This document shows positions 2,763-49,508 of a DNA stretch of 64,000 nucleotides, piece by piece. How positions within the stretch are numbered: position 1 is the first letter of the stretch; the number at the start of each line of letters is the position of its first letter. Made by a program: the position numbers and the translations under genes. The stretch is from Halegenticoccus soli. GTDB lineage: Archaea; Halobacteriota; Halobacteria; Halobacteriales; Haloferacaceae. The DNA is taken from assembly GCF_002844195.1 (NCBI RefSeq), contig NZ_PEND01000003.1, positions 434,001 to 498,000 of the forward strand, in the 5' to 3' direction. The notes beneath the pieces were generated by a model, which was not told the origin of the DNA, did not search any database, and worked only from the letters and a program-made list of their open reading frames with translations.

Positions 2763-3077
2763 GTGAGTCGTGGTGTGAACTACTCGCTCGAGCTGCTCAT
2801 CCCATCAGTCGTGTTCGAGCGCACCCGTGTCGCGTTTCCAATACTCACAGAGGAACCGCTGGATGACGAGAATGTGAGTCTGCGTACTGCATCGATCCCT
2901 TTCAGTTTCGGGCTCGGGGTCGTCGATTCAGCCGAATCAGGCATCATCGTCTTCACGGATCAAGGCGTGCGTGGAATCCCCGTGAACGACACCACAGAAG
3001 CGCTCGACTGGGCGACAAACCAGTATGAACGCGCGAAACAGGGTGCTAACCCGGTTTTCCTCCGAGGCCGTGTCTAA
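2763..3077 (+). pseudogene. C-terminal remnant of FilR1/DUF1724-type HTH regulator
   Basis: The 104-aa frame resembles the C-terminal half of haloarchaeal winged-helix regulators with a FilR1 (DUF1724) domain. It reads a VNYSLELLIPSVVFE strand-helix, then SFGLGVVDSAESGIIVFTDQGVRG, then a final TTEALDWATNQYERAK helix. The N-terminal DNA-binding domain is absent. The frame is open upstream into the start of the opposite-strand PadR gene, but no HTH sequence appears there, so the 5' half has been lost. It could be expressed from the GTG at 2763 as a free sensor domain, though a relic is more likely. Confidence 0.5.
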
Positions 3078-40370: not shown

Positions 40371-40678
40371 GTCTCGGAACCACACTCGACGACCGTCGTC
40401 GGTCAGGCCGTGTAAGAATTCACCTTTTGCCCTCATGCAACCTCCCTACGCCAGGTATAACTCGAATGTGGCCCCTCCCCGCTACGCGGGGGCGTCACTG
40501 CCACCGTCACCGAGGACGAAATCGCGCTGGTGAGTGCGACCGTGAGTACCGACGGCCGAAGAGCCGTCGACAATGCGGTTTAGGAAGCGTCCGAGACGGC
40601 GGTTGCGTGACCAAAAACAGCCAGCAGGAATAGCCCACGTTGTAATTCGACCACATACTATCAAGGATAGTGTCTTGA
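40371..40678. other. Intergenic stretch with short GC-rich hairpins
   Basis: No credible gene. Two hairpins are visible: CCCCGC-TAC-GCGGGG (about 40477-40491) and CGACGGC-N6-GCCGTCG (about 40543-40562). The first, a 3-nt-loop hairpin, is like those in the tnpB 3' relics, so this may be another decayed element end. Confidence 0.3.
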
Positions 40679-44085: not shown

Positions 44086-44482
44086 GAATCGCGTCTTCGC
44101 GTGCCTGCTCAAACCGTTCGGCGACCTCAGCAACGAGATCTTCTTCAACTACCGTCCGTAACAACGCATCAGTCATTTCACGAACAACGATGTTCTGATA
44201 GCCTCGCTGATTAAGATCGCGCTCCAACTCATAGTTGAGCCATGAGTCAAAGTTCTCAATGGTCTCTTTGCGGGCGTAGAAAGGCCGCTGAAGTGCTGCC
44301 TCATATGAGAACGCCGTCTCAGTCATTGGGTCACGATCCTCTAGGTGATCTCCATCGTAATCCTTAGTTGTCGTACTCGTAGTTGCTGGATTAGATGATT
44401 GCTGAGAAGATTGAGACTCGTCTTGCTGGTCGGGAGTGTCCTCTAGTGTCTCACCGAGATCAGCAAATGGATCGTCAGTCAT
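44078..44482 (-). CDS. Partner of ParA (putative centromere-binding/ParB-like protein)
   Basis: This 134-aa acidic protein has a disordered N-terminus (DTPDQQDESQSSQQSSNPAT) and a helical C-terminal half (FSYEAALQRPFYARKETIEN, then FDSWLNYELERDLNQRGYQN, then VVREMTDALLRTVVEEDLVA). It overlaps the end of parA by 8 bp (ATGA-type coupling), the usual place of the second partition gene. I cannot name the DNA-binding family. Confidence 0.6.
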   Translation of the reverse strand: MTDDPFADLGETLEDTPDQQDESQSSQQSSNPATTSTTTKDYDGDHLEDRDPMTETAFSYEAALQRPFYARKETIENFDSWLNYELERDLNQRGYQNIVVREMTDALLRTVVEEDLVAEVAERFEQAREDAIQK

Positions 44483-45431
44483 GTCTCACCACCTCGCCAG
44501 CTTCGACGATGTGCGCGAGTTCGGCGAAACACTTGAGCTGATCGCAGTCGGGGTCATAGTCTAAGAGCGGCATCCGCTCTCCGTATGCTTTCGTGATGCT
44601 CGTTCGGTCTCGAATGCCTGGTGTGAGTTCGTTGTCGCCAGCGCCGACAGCCTCCCAGTCAGTAATCCGTGCAAAATTCGGGATTCGATCCTGCAAGCTG
44701 TCGTGAGAGTTGAGTCGTTCGAGGAGCTTGCGGTCCTGGGTCTGGTGGTCGATCCGTTCACTCAGCATGTTCGGAACGAGTGCGAGAACGTCGACGTTCA
44801 GATGTTTGCGCAAGGGAGCAATCTGCCGCTCAATAGTTCGCTCAAGGCCAGACATAGCCTCGTTGCCAGGCGCGAGCGGCAGAACCAAATTCGTCGTTGC
44901 AACGAGGGCATTATCGGTCAACCGTGACCGATACGCAGGAGAGTCGGTCACGACATAGTCATACACCTCGTCGAGCATCGGGTCAACAACCTCTCGCTTC
45001 AACAAGGCAGACGGTTGGAAGACGTCACCGACGACGATTTCTCGTTCAACCTGCTCAAGGTCCTCACTCGATGGGAGAAGATCGAATTCATAGCCAGTTT
45101 CATAAATGATAGAAGCAGGATCTGCGTCATCGAAGAAGACATCACCGATACTCTCGGTTGTATCATGATAGTGGTTGTCAAAGCCGAGCCCGACTGAAGC
45201 GTGCCCGTTCGGGTCAAGATCAATAAGAAGCACGTCATGACCGTGAGCAGCCAGTTGTCGCGCGAGATTCACTGCAATGGTGGACTTTCCTACCCCACCC
45301 TTGAGCATACAGACAGAAACCGCCCGTGAAGTTCCGTCTGTGTTGATCGATTGGTAGGGGGTAGTTAGATGAGTCGTACTATTCGTACTATTCGTTCGAG
45401 TTAAGCTATTCCTGCTATTCGTCCCAGTCAT
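44475..45431 (-). CDS. parA: ParA-family plasmid partition ATPase
   Basis: This protein of about 318 aa starts from the Met at 45431 (MTGTNSRNSLT). It has the deviant Walker A CMLKGGVGKST (44-51 KGGVGKST), Walker A' VLLIDLDPNGHASVGLG, and a Walker-B-like VVTDSPAY region. ParA ATPases segregate low-copy replicons by binding DNA and a partner protein. An earlier in-frame start at 45515 is possible, but the N-terminal extension is not conserved-looking. It overlaps its downstream partner gene, and AATAGCA-type motifs flank both sides of the operon. Confidence 0.88.
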   Translation of the reverse strand: MTGTNSRNSLTRTNSTNSTTHLTTPYQSINTDGTSRAVSVCMLKGGVGKSTIAVNLARQLAAHGHDVLLIDLDPNGHASVGLGFDNHYHDTTESIGDVFFDDADPASIIYETGYEFDLLPSSEDLEQVEREIVVGDVFQPSALLKREVVDPMLDEVYDYVVTDSPAYRSRLTDNALVATTNLVLPLAPGNEAMSGLERTIERQIAPLRKHLNVDVLALVPNMLSERIDHQTQDRKLLERLNSHDSLQDRIPNFARITDWEAVGAGDNELTPGIRDRTSITKAYGERMPLLDYDPDCDQLKCFAELAHIVEAGEVVRHD

Positions 45432-45560
45432 TCTATTCAGAAATAGAATCTCATGAGCACATATATCTATGGGTGCCAGATAGACGCCACCATGATAAGA
45501 GCTCAAATATCCCAAATAGGTAAAATAGCATAGAAAGTATTCTACTCGAAAATAGCGTGT
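45370..45560. promoter_or_regulatory. parA upstream region with CTATTC/AATAG motif array
   Basis: The array reads GTACTATTCGTACTATTCG, AAGCTATTCCTGCTATTCG, TTCTATTCAGAAATAGAATC (a near-palindrome), then further out CCAAATAGG, AAAATAGCATAG and AAAATAGCG. The first copies overlap the parA 5' end and the rest lie upstream. Autoregulation of par operons by ParA or its partner at such repeats is common. The assignment here is inference from position and repetition. Confidence 0.5.
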
Positions 45561-45719: not shown

Positions 45720-46270
45720 GTGGTGACTTCCGCTGCTCCACACTTTGAAAGTGGTAGCCGTGAACTACCCTGTCCTACCGTGCTCGGGGCTACTCGCCCC
45801 TCGCTTATCGAGGACAGGGCTTCCTGGTTCTGCGTCGGCACGTGCACCCGACGTGGGCATAGCGGTTCCAGACTCCGCAGGCGACTTCCCTTCACAGGTG
45901 GTTCGGAGTGTCCTACTCCTCCCAGATGGACACTCGGCCACACCCGACGGTGCGCGCTTCGTGTCGTCGTTCGAAAGGCACGACGCGCCTTTCGTGATGA
46001 CGAAACGGCAGAGCCGTTTCGAACCACGCGTGAACACCATCGGAAGCGTGGTGAGCATCGTACTATCCTTAGCAACCGCACAGAGAGTAACTGTAACGGA
46101 GATGGTGTCTGAGAACCGTGCGGGCGTCGCCAGAACGCGGAGCGTTCTGGCTGCCAACCAGAAGCCTGCGGCTTCTGGTGACGTTGACGAGACGCAAAGC
46201 GTCTCGTTCGCACACAAGAGCGAAGCTCTTGTGAACGCTGTCTCCCCTCCCTACTCGCTCCCGTTGGTCG
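45720..46270 (-). mobile_element. IS1341-type tnpB 3'-end relic with tandem 3-nt-loop hairpins
   Basis: On the minus strand the frame includes RSRTLRTTCEGKSPAESGTA and ends ADAEPGSPVLDKRGASSPEH before a stop, the type of C-terminus seen in haloarchaeal TnpB proteins. The segment is largely homologous, inverted, to 63240-63690. It holds four consecutive hairpins at 46129-46151, 46157-46179, 46187-46207 and 46213-46233, all with 9-10-bp perfect arms and exactly 3-nt loops. A fifth lies at 46001-46021. No RuvC catalytic part is present. Confidence 0.6.
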
Positions 46271-46434
46271 CTCGCTGAGGAAGGGAACTTAGCGCCTCAA
46301 TTCAGCTAAACCGGTGTTGCCAGTAACGAAATCGAACTCAACTACACTAGTTGCACTACCTCGTACCAAGTAGCGGTCAATCTCCTCGCCGAAATTCGCG
46401 TGTCAAGTCATCCTTGTCGGCGGATAGACCCCGA

Positions 46435-46475
46435 CCGAAGGAATCCCACGGCTGTAGCCGTGGGAGGATGTCGAA
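46435..46475 (+). mobile_element. IS1341-type right-end hairpin relic
   Basis: CCCACGGCTG/TAGCCGTGGG (46446-46465) followed by AGGATGTCG matches the right-end hairpin signature of the tnpB element (stem, then GGATGTC). No tnpB reading frame is attached on the left, so it is a solo end between the relic at 45720-46270 and the replication origin boxes. Confidence 0.5.
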
Positions 46476-46566: not shown

Positions 46567-46653
46567 ACACCCCTCGTTTTGAATGAGAAGTGAGCTCGAG
46601 AGCCCAGAGGAGGACCGCCCCTCGTGAAACCTGTCATTCAAAACGAGGGGGGT
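46567..46653. other. Replication origin ORB-like boxes, downstream side of orc
   Basis: There are two facing boxes: ACCCCTCGTTTTGAATGAG (46569-46587) and its inverted copy GTCATTCAAAACGAGGGGG (46633-46651). Haloarchaeal origin recognition boxes have a comparable shape with a G-run. They flank the 3' side of the orc gene. Their inverted orientation is typical of an archaeal origin. Confidence 0.6.
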
Positions 46654-46722
46654 ATGAAACATGGGATGCCGAAACTTCCGTCAGGATGGAAACGCCGAAC
46701 ACAAGAGGAATGGCTCTCGAAT

Positions 46723-48015
46723 TCACACCCCTTCAAGCTCTTTCAACCGATCGTCACTCCGGAGAACAGCCGAGAGGACGATATCCGGATCACGGAGTAA
46801 CTCGTGTTCTAAATACACCCCTTGATTAGGGCCACCGCCGACTCGCGTCGATTCAGTAACCCCAATGAGGGACATTTTTTTAAGAATTTGGTAGACACGC
46901 TCATCGCTTACCACGTTTGATCGGACGTCTCGCGCCACGAGTTCATACCGATCATAGATCTCACTCGTTCTGTACGGCTGTTCTCGATGTAAGTTTAGTT
47001 TCGCAAGCGCATAGAGGATGAGTTTCGCTTGAGGAGTCGTCACTTCGATTGTCTCCTTCACTTGATCGACCTCTGCCTTTTCTTTTGCTTGCTCAATATG
47101 ATCGATCTTGACGTGCGTCTCGTCTTGACGTTCAGCAAGATCGCCCGCTAACCGGAGAATGTCGACGGCCTTCCGCGCATCGCCATGTTCGTCTGCAGAG
47201 ATTTCAGCGGTTAGAGGAATGACGCCATCTTGAAGAACCTCATCCCGAAAGGCATCACGTCGGTGTTCGAGAATCAACTCGAGTTGCCGAGCGTCGTAGG
47301 GTTCAAAAACGAATTCAGATGTCCGCATTGAGCTTTCAACACGCGCGTTGAGCTTCTTTCCATATTCAACTTGATTCGAAATGGCGATAATCCCGATATA
47401 GGCATCAGTGTGGCCCGCCTCTCGGGCACGAGAGAGCTCGTGGAGAATATCGACGCTGTTGTCGAGTTTATCCACTTCATCAAGGATAATGATCACACCG
47501 TCGTAATGGTCGTTGAGAATCTCGTACGCATAGCTAAAGTACTCAGTTGAACCGAGGCCAAATCGTGGGATATCAATCCCGGCGTTCGCATCGCTCTCCA
47601 AATCCATGGCAATCTTCCGAGCGACACGTGTTTCAGTATTGTGACTTTTACACTCAACATAGACGCTCCCGGCATCCACCTGGAGCGCGCGAGCAGATTG
47701 AACCGCTCGTCGGCTCACGTGCTGTGTGACGAGTGATTTCCCCGTTCCAGTCTCCCCAAGGATAATGACGTGATTCGGTTGCTCTCCATGGACCACATGG
47801 CGAATTTCATTCGCAACCGCTTCGATCTCGGGATCTCGGCCGACAATTCGGTCTTCCTCAGGAACAGTTCCGACGACAAGTAAATCACGATTCGCGAAAA
47901 TCGGTGACCCAAGTGGCCCCTCTTCTTTATCCAGGCCAAAGAGCGGATCTTTCGACGGATCGTGAAGAGAGTCTCTCGGCAGGTCGCGAGAGTCACCATC
48001 GGCGTCGTCAGTCAT
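46723..48015 (-). CDS. orc: Orc1/Cdc6 replication initiator
   Basis: This 430-aa AAA+ protein has Walker A GETGTGKS (87-94), Walker B IIILDE (175-180), sensor/arginine segments (ISNQVEYGKKLNARVESSMR) and a C-terminal winged helix (SEIYDRYELVARDVRSNVVS, then DERVYQILKKMSLIGV). It binds origin recognition boxes and loads MCM. ORB-like boxes lie on both sides of the gene, including one 37 bp before the start. Together with the nearby parA this indicates an autonomous replicon origin. Confidence 0.92.
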   Translation of the reverse strand: MTDDADGDSRDLPRDSLHDPSKDPLFGLDKEEGPLGSPIFANRDLLVVGTVPEEDRIVGRDPEIEAVANEIRHVVHGEQPNHVIILGETGTGKSLVTQHVSRRAVQSARALQVDAGSVYVECKSHNTETRVARKIAMDLESDANAGIDIPRFGLGSTEYFSYAYEILNDHYDGVIIILDEVDKLDNSVDILHELSRAREAGHTDAYIGIIAISNQVEYGKKLNARVESSMRTSEFVFEPYDARQLELILEHRRDAFRDEVLQDGVIPLTAEISADEHGDARKAVDILRLAGDLAERQDETHVKIDHIEQAKEKAEVDQVKETIEVTTPQAKLILYALAKLNLHREQPYRTSEIYDRYELVARDVRSNVVSDERVYQILKKMSLIGVTESTRVGGGPNQGVYLEHELLRDPDIVLSAVLRSDDRLKELEGV

Positions 48016-48051
48016 AGACAGACTGAAACACTACTACCGTAAATAATTAAT

Positions 48052-48070
48052 CCACCCCGTTTTGAATCTA
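48052..48070. other. ORB-like box at the orc promoter
   Basis: The sequence CACCCCGTTTTGAATCTA resembles the CCCCTCGTTTTGAATGAG boxes with a shortened G-run complement. It begins 37 bp before the orc ATG and may serve autoregulation. Confidence 0.45.
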
Positions 48071-48169
48071 CGACCGGGAATTCAACAAGGTATGCCCGCA
48101 ATACGGCAGAAACCAATCTGATACTGAAAACCGCGGTTGGATTGAGATCAAAAGGGCAGTTTGAGAGAA

Positions 48170-48580
48170 GCTTCGAGCGCATACCCGCATCTTCAGGCGC
48201 GGGTCGAACGGTAGGCCCGGCTTAGCATCCGCCGTTGGTTGCCGGGCCGGAGATCCTACGGCGGGACGGTCACGCGTCTGTACGTCCTGGTTCCGTGTGC
48301 TACTCTAGCGGAGAGAGCCATGCCAGAGAAGATACGCATGCCGATAACTCGGCTGGAGACGGGGCCTGAGTGACCGGGCCATAGCCCTCTCACGGGAGGT
48401 AACCCGAGAGGTTCCCCCGGTGTCTTGCGCGAGCGAAGCTCTCGCGGACTCGTCAGAAGACACAGTCTTCCGAGATGTCGCCGGTTCCTGTGAGAGTGCG
48501 GGGTAAACCCTCGAAGGCCACTGGCCGATATCCCGCGGTGGGATGCCACGCCTTGAGGGCGTGGAGGTCACTGATCTTGA
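48170..48580 (+). mobile_element. Non-coding IS1341-like element (two end-type hairpins, internal hairpins)
   Basis: The segment starts near a hairpin ACCCGCATCT/CAGGCGCGGGT (48182-48204) and ends at CCACGCCTTG/AGGGCGTGG (48546-48564) followed by AGGTCAC. Inside are short hairpins including GAAGAC-ACA-GTCTTC (about 48452-48466). No tnpB frame is visible. It lies between the orc promoter and the main ORB array, so it appears to have been inserted in the origin. The boundaries are approximate. Confidence 0.45.
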
Positions 48581-48823
48581 GACCCCCCCCTCGTTTTGAA
48601 TGAGTCTACTCCGGTTCTAGCCGTCAGTGATCGAACCGAGGACCACCCCTGGTTTTGAGTGAGAAATACAGCGGAGACCGGAAATTGAGACCCCCCTGGT
48701 TTTGAGTGAGAAATACAGCGGAGACCGGAAATTGAGACCCCCCTGGTTTTGAGTGAGGGAAATGGACTCACCATCCCTTCGTATGAGATTACTGCCCCAC
48801 ACCCCCCTAATTTGGAATGAGAG
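48581..48823. other. Origin ORB array, with three boxes at 47-bp spacing
   Basis: Five boxes read in one direction: CCCCCTCGTTTTGAATGAG (48586-48604), CACCCCTGGTTTTGAGTGAG (ends 48663), CCCCCCTGGTTTTGAGTGAG twice (ending 48710 and 48757) and ACCCCCCTAATTTGGAATGAG-like (48799-48823). The middle three are in a direct repeat of exactly 47 bp that includes AAATACAGCGGAGACCGG. This is the probable Orc1 binding array and DNA unwinding region of the origin. Confidence 0.65.
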
Positions 48824-49508
48824 TACCATTGGTACTACTCCTATGATTCTCTACGACTCGATATCCACGATCGTCTTTGCAATACCTCTCGGTGGGGATC
48901 ACTGCGTTTTTACTCGATCAATGTTTCCCTATACGACCGGGCTTAATACAGGAAGATTTATATTGGAGTAGTGAGTAAAGTTCATTAAGTTATTCAGGAG
49001 CAAAGACGAAGATATCTTCGTCGACAATGAGAACACTAGTAATTCGTAATTTGAAAATGTCTATCGTGTAGGTGCTTTCCCGTGTAAATTCTATTTGAGG
49101 ATAAGAGAACCAGCACTAGTGGCATCTCATTCAAAACGAGGGGGGTGGGTGATGCTCTACCACCTGTGTCGTGCCTCGATTCCTCGTCACAGACACGACC
49201 CTGGAAGGAACTCCTAACCGTGATGAAGATACTTGCGGACCATCCACTCATCGTTTCTGTTCTTCGGTCTGATCGATTAGGCTCGGTCCTAGCTGCTAGC
49301 TGTGGTGTGAAAAAGAAGGCGTGTTCGAAATGATCGCTCCTCCCTGCCTGGTGATGGGACATTACCTTCATGCAAAACACCGATCCTCCTGTCTTCATGA
49401 ATTCGCCCGTGTTAACCTCGTGATAAGGGTAAGTACGAAGTTCTACTCACCCTGGATTTTTACACCTTCAGAAGAAAGTGCCTAGAACCCCAGCTTAGAG
49501 GGTTCCCT
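48824..49508. other. AT-rich origin flank with a distal inverted ORB
   Basis: The stretch has AT-rich tracts (48860-49070), which could be the duplex unwinding element, then an inverted box TCATTCAAAACGAGGGGGG (49127-49145). Boxes in opposite orientation on each side of an AT-rich core are the usual plan of archaeal origins. No gene is credible here. Confidence 0.5.

Follow-up and report, generated by a model that had tools for sequence, protein, structure and literature searches.

Palindromic repeats lodged inside genes are known from bacteria; for haloarchaea we found no earlier report of them in the open-access literature, nor any archaeal REP-like element within genes. The closest known system is that of the CGTC-tagged REPs, which include RPE-4 and RPE-6 of Rickettsia and dRS3 of Neisseria (Di Nocera et al. 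2013, PMC3733652). These are short tagged hairpins, often paired and commonly heterodimeric, that sit in frame in genes and have no dedicated transposase known; they occur in bacteria only (five phyla), with stems of 8 to 9 bp that start with A-T, loops of 4 to 5 nt, and a CCA tail. In REPINs and BIMEs (GTAG-REPs, RAYTs), two tagged hairpins make up one non-autonomous unit, and tandem arrays occur. Rickettsia palindromic elements are tolerated in frame within unrelated conserved genes, and are longer (about 150 bp) and bacterial (PMC10969869). Small mobile repeats (SMRs) of Haloquadratum insert near the ends of PATEs, a category defined in that genus (Dyall-Smith et al. 2011, PMC3119063) by ends related to IS605-type elements and the lack of inverted terminal repeats.

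The window, meaning the whole 64,000-nucleotide stretch of Halegenticoccus soli DNA analysed here, holds four consecutive hairpins (Table 1) that are two tandem copies of a two-hairpin palindromic mobile repeat inserted near the left end of a PATE. The observation is real, and the repeat is an archaeal counterpart of a known kind. Very probably, the two copies are those of a non-autonomous mobile element of 48 to 60 bp, composed of a pair of hairpins with arms of 9 to 10 bp and 3-nt loops and inserting at the target CGR^CR. In comparison with the CGTC-REPs, the haloarchaeal units have stems of 8 to 11 bp, loops of 3 nt closed by a C-G pair, tags at the outer end on either side, spacers of TGGCA or TGTGCGA, and very diverse arms. 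The CGTC tag does lie beside the stem, but loops of 4 to 5 nt, A-T at the first two stem positions and the CCA tail are absent; membership fails on these features, though the units work alike. Unlike REPINs, the units carry CGTC, CGTT or CATC rather than GTAG, often lie in conserved genes, and have no linked RAYT that we could find. We know of no two-hairpin triloop design for Rickettsia palindromic elements.

Table 1. Positions of the hairpins, repeat units and host elements within the window
Feature	Position	Strand	Description
Hairpin 1	46129-46151	none	10-bp arms, loop GGA
Hairpin 2	46157-46179	none	10-bp arms, loop TGC
Hairpin 3	46187-46207	none	9-bp arms, loop AAA
Hairpin 4	46213-46233	none	9-bp arms, loop GAA
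Unit 1	46127-46183	none	57 bp; CG before it (46125-46126), ends in CG; TC-(GCCAGAACGC gga GCGTTCTGGC)-TGCCA-(ACCAGAAGCC tgc GGCTTCTGGT)-GACG, first base pair overlapping the tag
Unit 2	46184-46237		54 bp; TTG-(ACGAGACGC aaa GCGTCTCGT)-TCGCA-(CACAAGAGC gaa GCTCTTGTG)-AACG
Third unit	45967-46026	none	60 bp; spacer TGATGA; one mismatch in its hairpin 1
PATE	about 45760-46307	minus	IS605/IS1341-type lacking the tnpB core; left end at about 46307, right end at about 45760
Right-end stem of PATE	45768-45819	minus	9-bp stem CCCTGTCCT / AGGACAGGG, 34-nt loop
Second PATE copy	63240-63690	plus	left-end site empty; one unit of the third kind (TGATGA spacer) inside

All four hairpins lie where the initial annotation had placed them, with the loops it gave, and a fifth triloop hairpin (46001-46021, loop AGA) was confirmed. 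The window contains five triloop hairpins with arms of at least 9 bp, where chance predicts 0.3; when the local 2 kb was shuffled 500 times, no shuffle gave two or more. Two others that had been called similar, near 40477 and 48452 (actually 48456-48470), have 6-bp arms, belong to another class and are near the chance level; triloop hairpins with 6-bp arms number 33 in the window versus 19 expected. On contig C5 of the same genome (526 kb), 42 triloop hairpins were found versus 10.7 expected, and 140 kb sampled from contigs C1 and C2 gave no excess (6 versus 4.7). Halolamina hairpins had 3-nt loops in 40 cases versus 3.3 expected, 4-nt loops in 10 versus 5.0, and 5-nt loops in 11 versus 2.3.

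What the initial annotation missed is that the hairpins form two-hairpin units whose ends, spacer and target are fixed. The loci read contained 99 non-redundant arrays, of which 86 were pairs and eight were runs of four hairpins. Units measure 48 to 60 bp and comprise two hairpins with stems of about 8 to 11 bp and 3-nt loops between the ends CGTT/CGTC and (G)AACG/GACG, as in GTCC(CCAGAACGC nnn GCGTTCTGG)TGTGCGA(ACGAGACGC nnn GCGTCTCGT)CAACG. The tags seen were CGTC, GTCC, CATC and CGTT; stems begin ACC, GCC, CCA or TCA, and spacers are TGGC or TGTGCGA. To orient a unit, we required GTC or ATC, with up to one additional C, ahead of hairpin 1 together with a spacer starting with T. This rule oriented 87 of about 122 adjacent hairpin pairs (43 with CGTC and 25 with GTCC), and as it selects the tag itself, the evidence lies in the passing share only, which is far above the chance share of a few per cent. 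The arms, initially described as unrelated, proved to be recurring families (CCAGAACGC, ACGAGACGC and CACAAGAGC) widespread in haloarchaea. Arm and spacer variety is wide, and several families may be lumped together here.

The host element fits the PATE definition: at about 550 bp it is too short for a transposase, its ends are related to IS605-type elements, and inverted terminal repeats are lacking. The region has 28 homologous places in its own 4.6-Mb genome. Its right end aligns at 75% identity over 71 nt (E=1e-5) with the DNA just 3' of the intact tnpB genes of L056, L068 and L039, and its left end is common to intact tnpB elements (L028, L029 and L129-L138), including copies from many other genomes. 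The initial annotation had called the locus a tnpB 3' relic; it is indeed derived from tnpB, but the hairpin site lies near the left end and not in the 3' part of that gene. Pfam gave no family for reading frames through the relic, and tblastn with the TnpB tail of L029 yielded no useful match to it, whereas the DNA alignment of the right ends did. The neighboring genes encode ParA and Orc1/Cdc6. The Orc1/Cdc6 gene (46723-48015, minus strand) is flanked by repeats spanning 46567-49146, where CCCCTCGTTTTGAATGAG occurs six times in direct orientation (46570, 48587, 48646, 48693, 48740 and 48804) and in inverted orientation at 46634-46653 and 49127-49146; together with the ParA gene (44475-45515), this looks like the origin and partition region of a replicon. 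Just outside the PATE, a hairpin of the IS200/IS605 end type, TCCCACGGCTGTAGCCGTGGGA within GGAATCCCACGG...GGGAGGATGTC (46444-46465), is probably the end of another element.

Aligning homologous tnpB-element copies and counting their hairpins revealed zero, one or two units at the same left-end point. The site is empty (...GCGGCG^CTGTATCC; ^ marks the junction) in about ten tnpB or PATE copies, such as L022, L024, L025, L027 and L111. One unit of 54 bp is present in about a dozen (L023, L028, L029, L119, L129-L138), and two units are present in the window, L021 and L114. As annotated initially, the second PATE copy of the window reads straight across the insertion point; the extra DNA, put at about 110 bp, measures exactly 111 bp, that is, 57 + 54. 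Unit 2 of the window stands alone at this site in six other copies (L130-L133, L136 and L137), and L119 carries its unit inverted at the same point. Two further loci (L231 and L234) have one unit nested in the spacer of another. The site of the third unit is likewise empty in L024, L025, L111 and L113, and filled in L021, L022, L023 and L112. Palindromes with differing arms and a constant loop size were gained repeatedly, as had been proposed; this is not ordinary duplication, and a role for DNA structure is upheld. In Halolamina salifodinae we also observed a larger repeat block with four triloop hairpins in a row (L173:10239-10544, L175:7143-7248, L192:4668-4924), whose copies are distinguished mainly by their loops and by one pair of arms (GACGAGAATC versus GACGAGAGCC); it looks like a MITE built from two-hairpin units.

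A palindromic insert of 111 bp near a PATE end recalls SMR-A, which is about 110 bp long and inserts in the end palindromes of PATE and IS605 elements (PMC3119063). Identity with SMR-A is nonetheless unlikely, since SMR-A is highly conserved and has inverted terminal repeats, whereas the insert here consists of independent units, each half the size of SMR-A and of varied sequence, that are found as single copies and within host genes as well. The units were set apart from SMR-A (HqIRS42/43/55) by its published description.

Insertions in host genes were clearest in Halolamina salifodinae (G053, NZ_JAGGLC010000001.1), where exact 57-bp units lie in frame in aroE, trpE, dsbA, NIF3 and an FAA-hydrolase gene, the gene families being confirmed by Pfam. 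Each of the five sites is empty in all six other genomes of the genus, so that, as with Rickettsia palindromic elements, the units occupy unrelated conserved genes with empty orthologues. The peptide encoded by an inserted unit is of the kind NESQRLSFANQNASRSGDV, and an AlphaFold model of AroE with the insert had a low pLDDT of 48 (four-sequence alignment). Further frame-preserving sites were found in genes for phosphomannomutase, FtsJ, an amino acid kinase and TnpB; the alignment of DUF2797 was too ragged at its start to be used as a clean empty site. Three TnpB orthologues (L218, L244, L246) share a common insert ahead of the first RuvC motif. Separately, the intact TnpB of L029 has a decayed unit at 3010-3075 in its C-terminal tail (TCAGAAACGC...TGGGCTG...CGAAAATCAC), translated as SSETLRGSDGLRKSLRDFR.

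The clean junctions were TCGG^CG (aroE), TCGA^CA (trpE), CCGG^CG (NIF3), CCGA^CG (dsbA), TCGA^CG (FAA hydrolase) and GCGG^CG (tnpB left end), with GG or GA as the left flank and CG or CA as the right. CGRCG, found at 1.8% of positions, is present at four of the five host-gene sites and at the left-end site. The target can be read as CGR^CR, with insertion 5' of CG or, equivalently, a 2-bp duplication of CG. The duplication is not certain because the right flank in trpE is CA and not CG, a junction that fits insertion 5' of CG better.

Across 13 homologous left-end copies, the arms of the first hairpin had a diversity of 0.00 and its loop 0.73 per site, with saturation at 0.75. The window and L021 are 93% identical, and their differences fall at 1 of 94 arm positions, 6 of 15 loop positions and 31 of 438 positions elsewhere. 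A survey of inverted repeats in 118,019 genomes reports that spacers in general accumulate more substitutions (PMC13155455), so rapid change in the loop is nothing unusual by itself; loop saturation alongside invariant arms is the striking feature. The closing pair is C-G in 145 of 151 hairpins, and among hairpins that the search had not itself selected, 58% have GNA or TNC loops, versus 17% in control hairpins. C(GNA)G triloops form exceptionally stable DNA mini-hairpins. In oriented units, GNA and TNC occur with equal frequency on both strands (54/51), so either DNA strand, and not a particular RNA, carries the stable loop. The loop also inverts in place: in G008, otherwise identical copies differ by GAA versus TTC in one loop. 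Arms that stay paired and conserved, with loops that are near saturation, strand-neutral and inverting, point to a constraint on DNA hairpins rather than on one RNA strand. Apart from this, apparently the same insertion was seen in four Halorubrum species (L215:5056, L216:7888, L220:3046, L240:1019), three of which have the arm CACGAGAGC and the fourth CACAAGAGC, with a matching change in the partner arm.

The initial annotation had offered selection on an RNA scaffold as one explanation, and a structured RNA (omega/reRNA) belonging to the tnpB element, with selection acting on its fold and not its sequence, would agree with arms that vary yet stay paired and with the arrays of contig C5, nearly all of which lie within about 1.5 kb of tnpB or inside PATEs. 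We consider this extremely improbable. The guide RNA of TnpB derives from the 3' end, whereas the window hairpins are at the left (5') end; many tnpB elements have no unit there, and the units also occur in unrelated host genes, from aroE to phosphomannomutase. A TnpB omega RNA would be expected at the 3' end of tnpB and in every active copy, which does not fit the hairpins, and GNA loops show no strand preference. Rfam returned no match except one tRNA. The four hairpins are neither a TnpB RNA scaffold nor ordinary coding sequence.

An origin in place, by template switching or quasipalindrome correction that perfects imperfect repeats with no mobile element involved, would account for loops that invert between near-identical copies and for arms kept identical, as intra-hairpin copying would do. 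It is very unlikely as the source of the units, which are precise 54- or 57-bp blocks sharing arms, spacers and ends at unrelated sites with a fixed target, and in the empty alleles a half-palindrome precursor is absent. Upkeep of the arms and flipping of the loops may nevertheless be due to template switching.

For the mobile two-hairpin element, the mobility signal is insertion polymorphism between species only. The unit may move as single-stranded DNA in a folded state, recognised by its perfect hairpin and mobilised by an enzyme provided in trans. At the right junction, YGA^CG would recreate a target-like site, which we infer gives rise to tandem arrays. The tnpB elements may carry and spread the unit, lengths divisible by three would allow its survival inside genes, and arms could be held by recognition or by copying one from the other. 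Within this scheme, an IS200/IS605-type Y1 (HUH) transposase could be the mover, making the units true archaeal REPINs; bacterial REPs are thought to be moved by RAYTs, of the same superfamily as Y1 (PMC3733652). Tagged hairpin pairs, a short target without clear duplication, triloops stable on either strand and the IS605-type association would suit such an enzyme. A search for Y1 (PF01797) gave matches in 49 of the 63 genomes carrying the CCAGAACGC arm and none in 14, and hairpins at the ends of Y1 transposases mostly have 2- to 4-nt loops, unlike the units; for these two reasons we regard Y1 as a rather unlikely mover. The sole Y1 gene of G053, which has 28 copies of one arm, is also without such hairpins around it. 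More tentatively, the units could represent an undescribed archaeal superfamily of two-hairpin C-NNN-G units that spread as single-stranded DNA to CGR^CR via a non-RAYT enzyme, keep their arms through loop-flipping, hairpin-templated repair and seed proteins with new peptides of 16 to 19 residues; this is possible, though we lean against it.

Of the family's 170 genomes, 63 contain the pattern CCAGAACGC-NNN-GCGTTCTGG, as do 18 of its 28 genera, versus none for a reversed-pattern control; these counts follow one arm only and so understate the family. The highest counts per genome (28, 16 and 15) are all from the genus of Halolamina salifodinae. Among the matches listed in a scan of all species, 74 of 80 loci belong, or are presumed to belong, to haloarchaea; a paired unit is present at 52 of these and at none of the six bacterial loci with the arm.

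Palindromes inside genes are an old puzzle from Rickettsia and other bacteria, as regards how they spread, why they are tolerated in host proteins and whether protein sequence arises from them. Haloarchaea are culturable and genetically tractable, and with exact empty and filled alleles in congeners and a defined target and unit, mobility and the enzyme become testable. Annotators should not mistake inserts of 16 to 19 residues in enzymes of haloarchaea, or hairpins close to tnpB, for domains or guide-RNA parts. PLSDB lists a 135-bp 'MCR-7.1' resistance gene at L361:3374-3508 on a Natrinema plasmid (NZ_CP084883.1), an entry that is probably spurious given its length and host.
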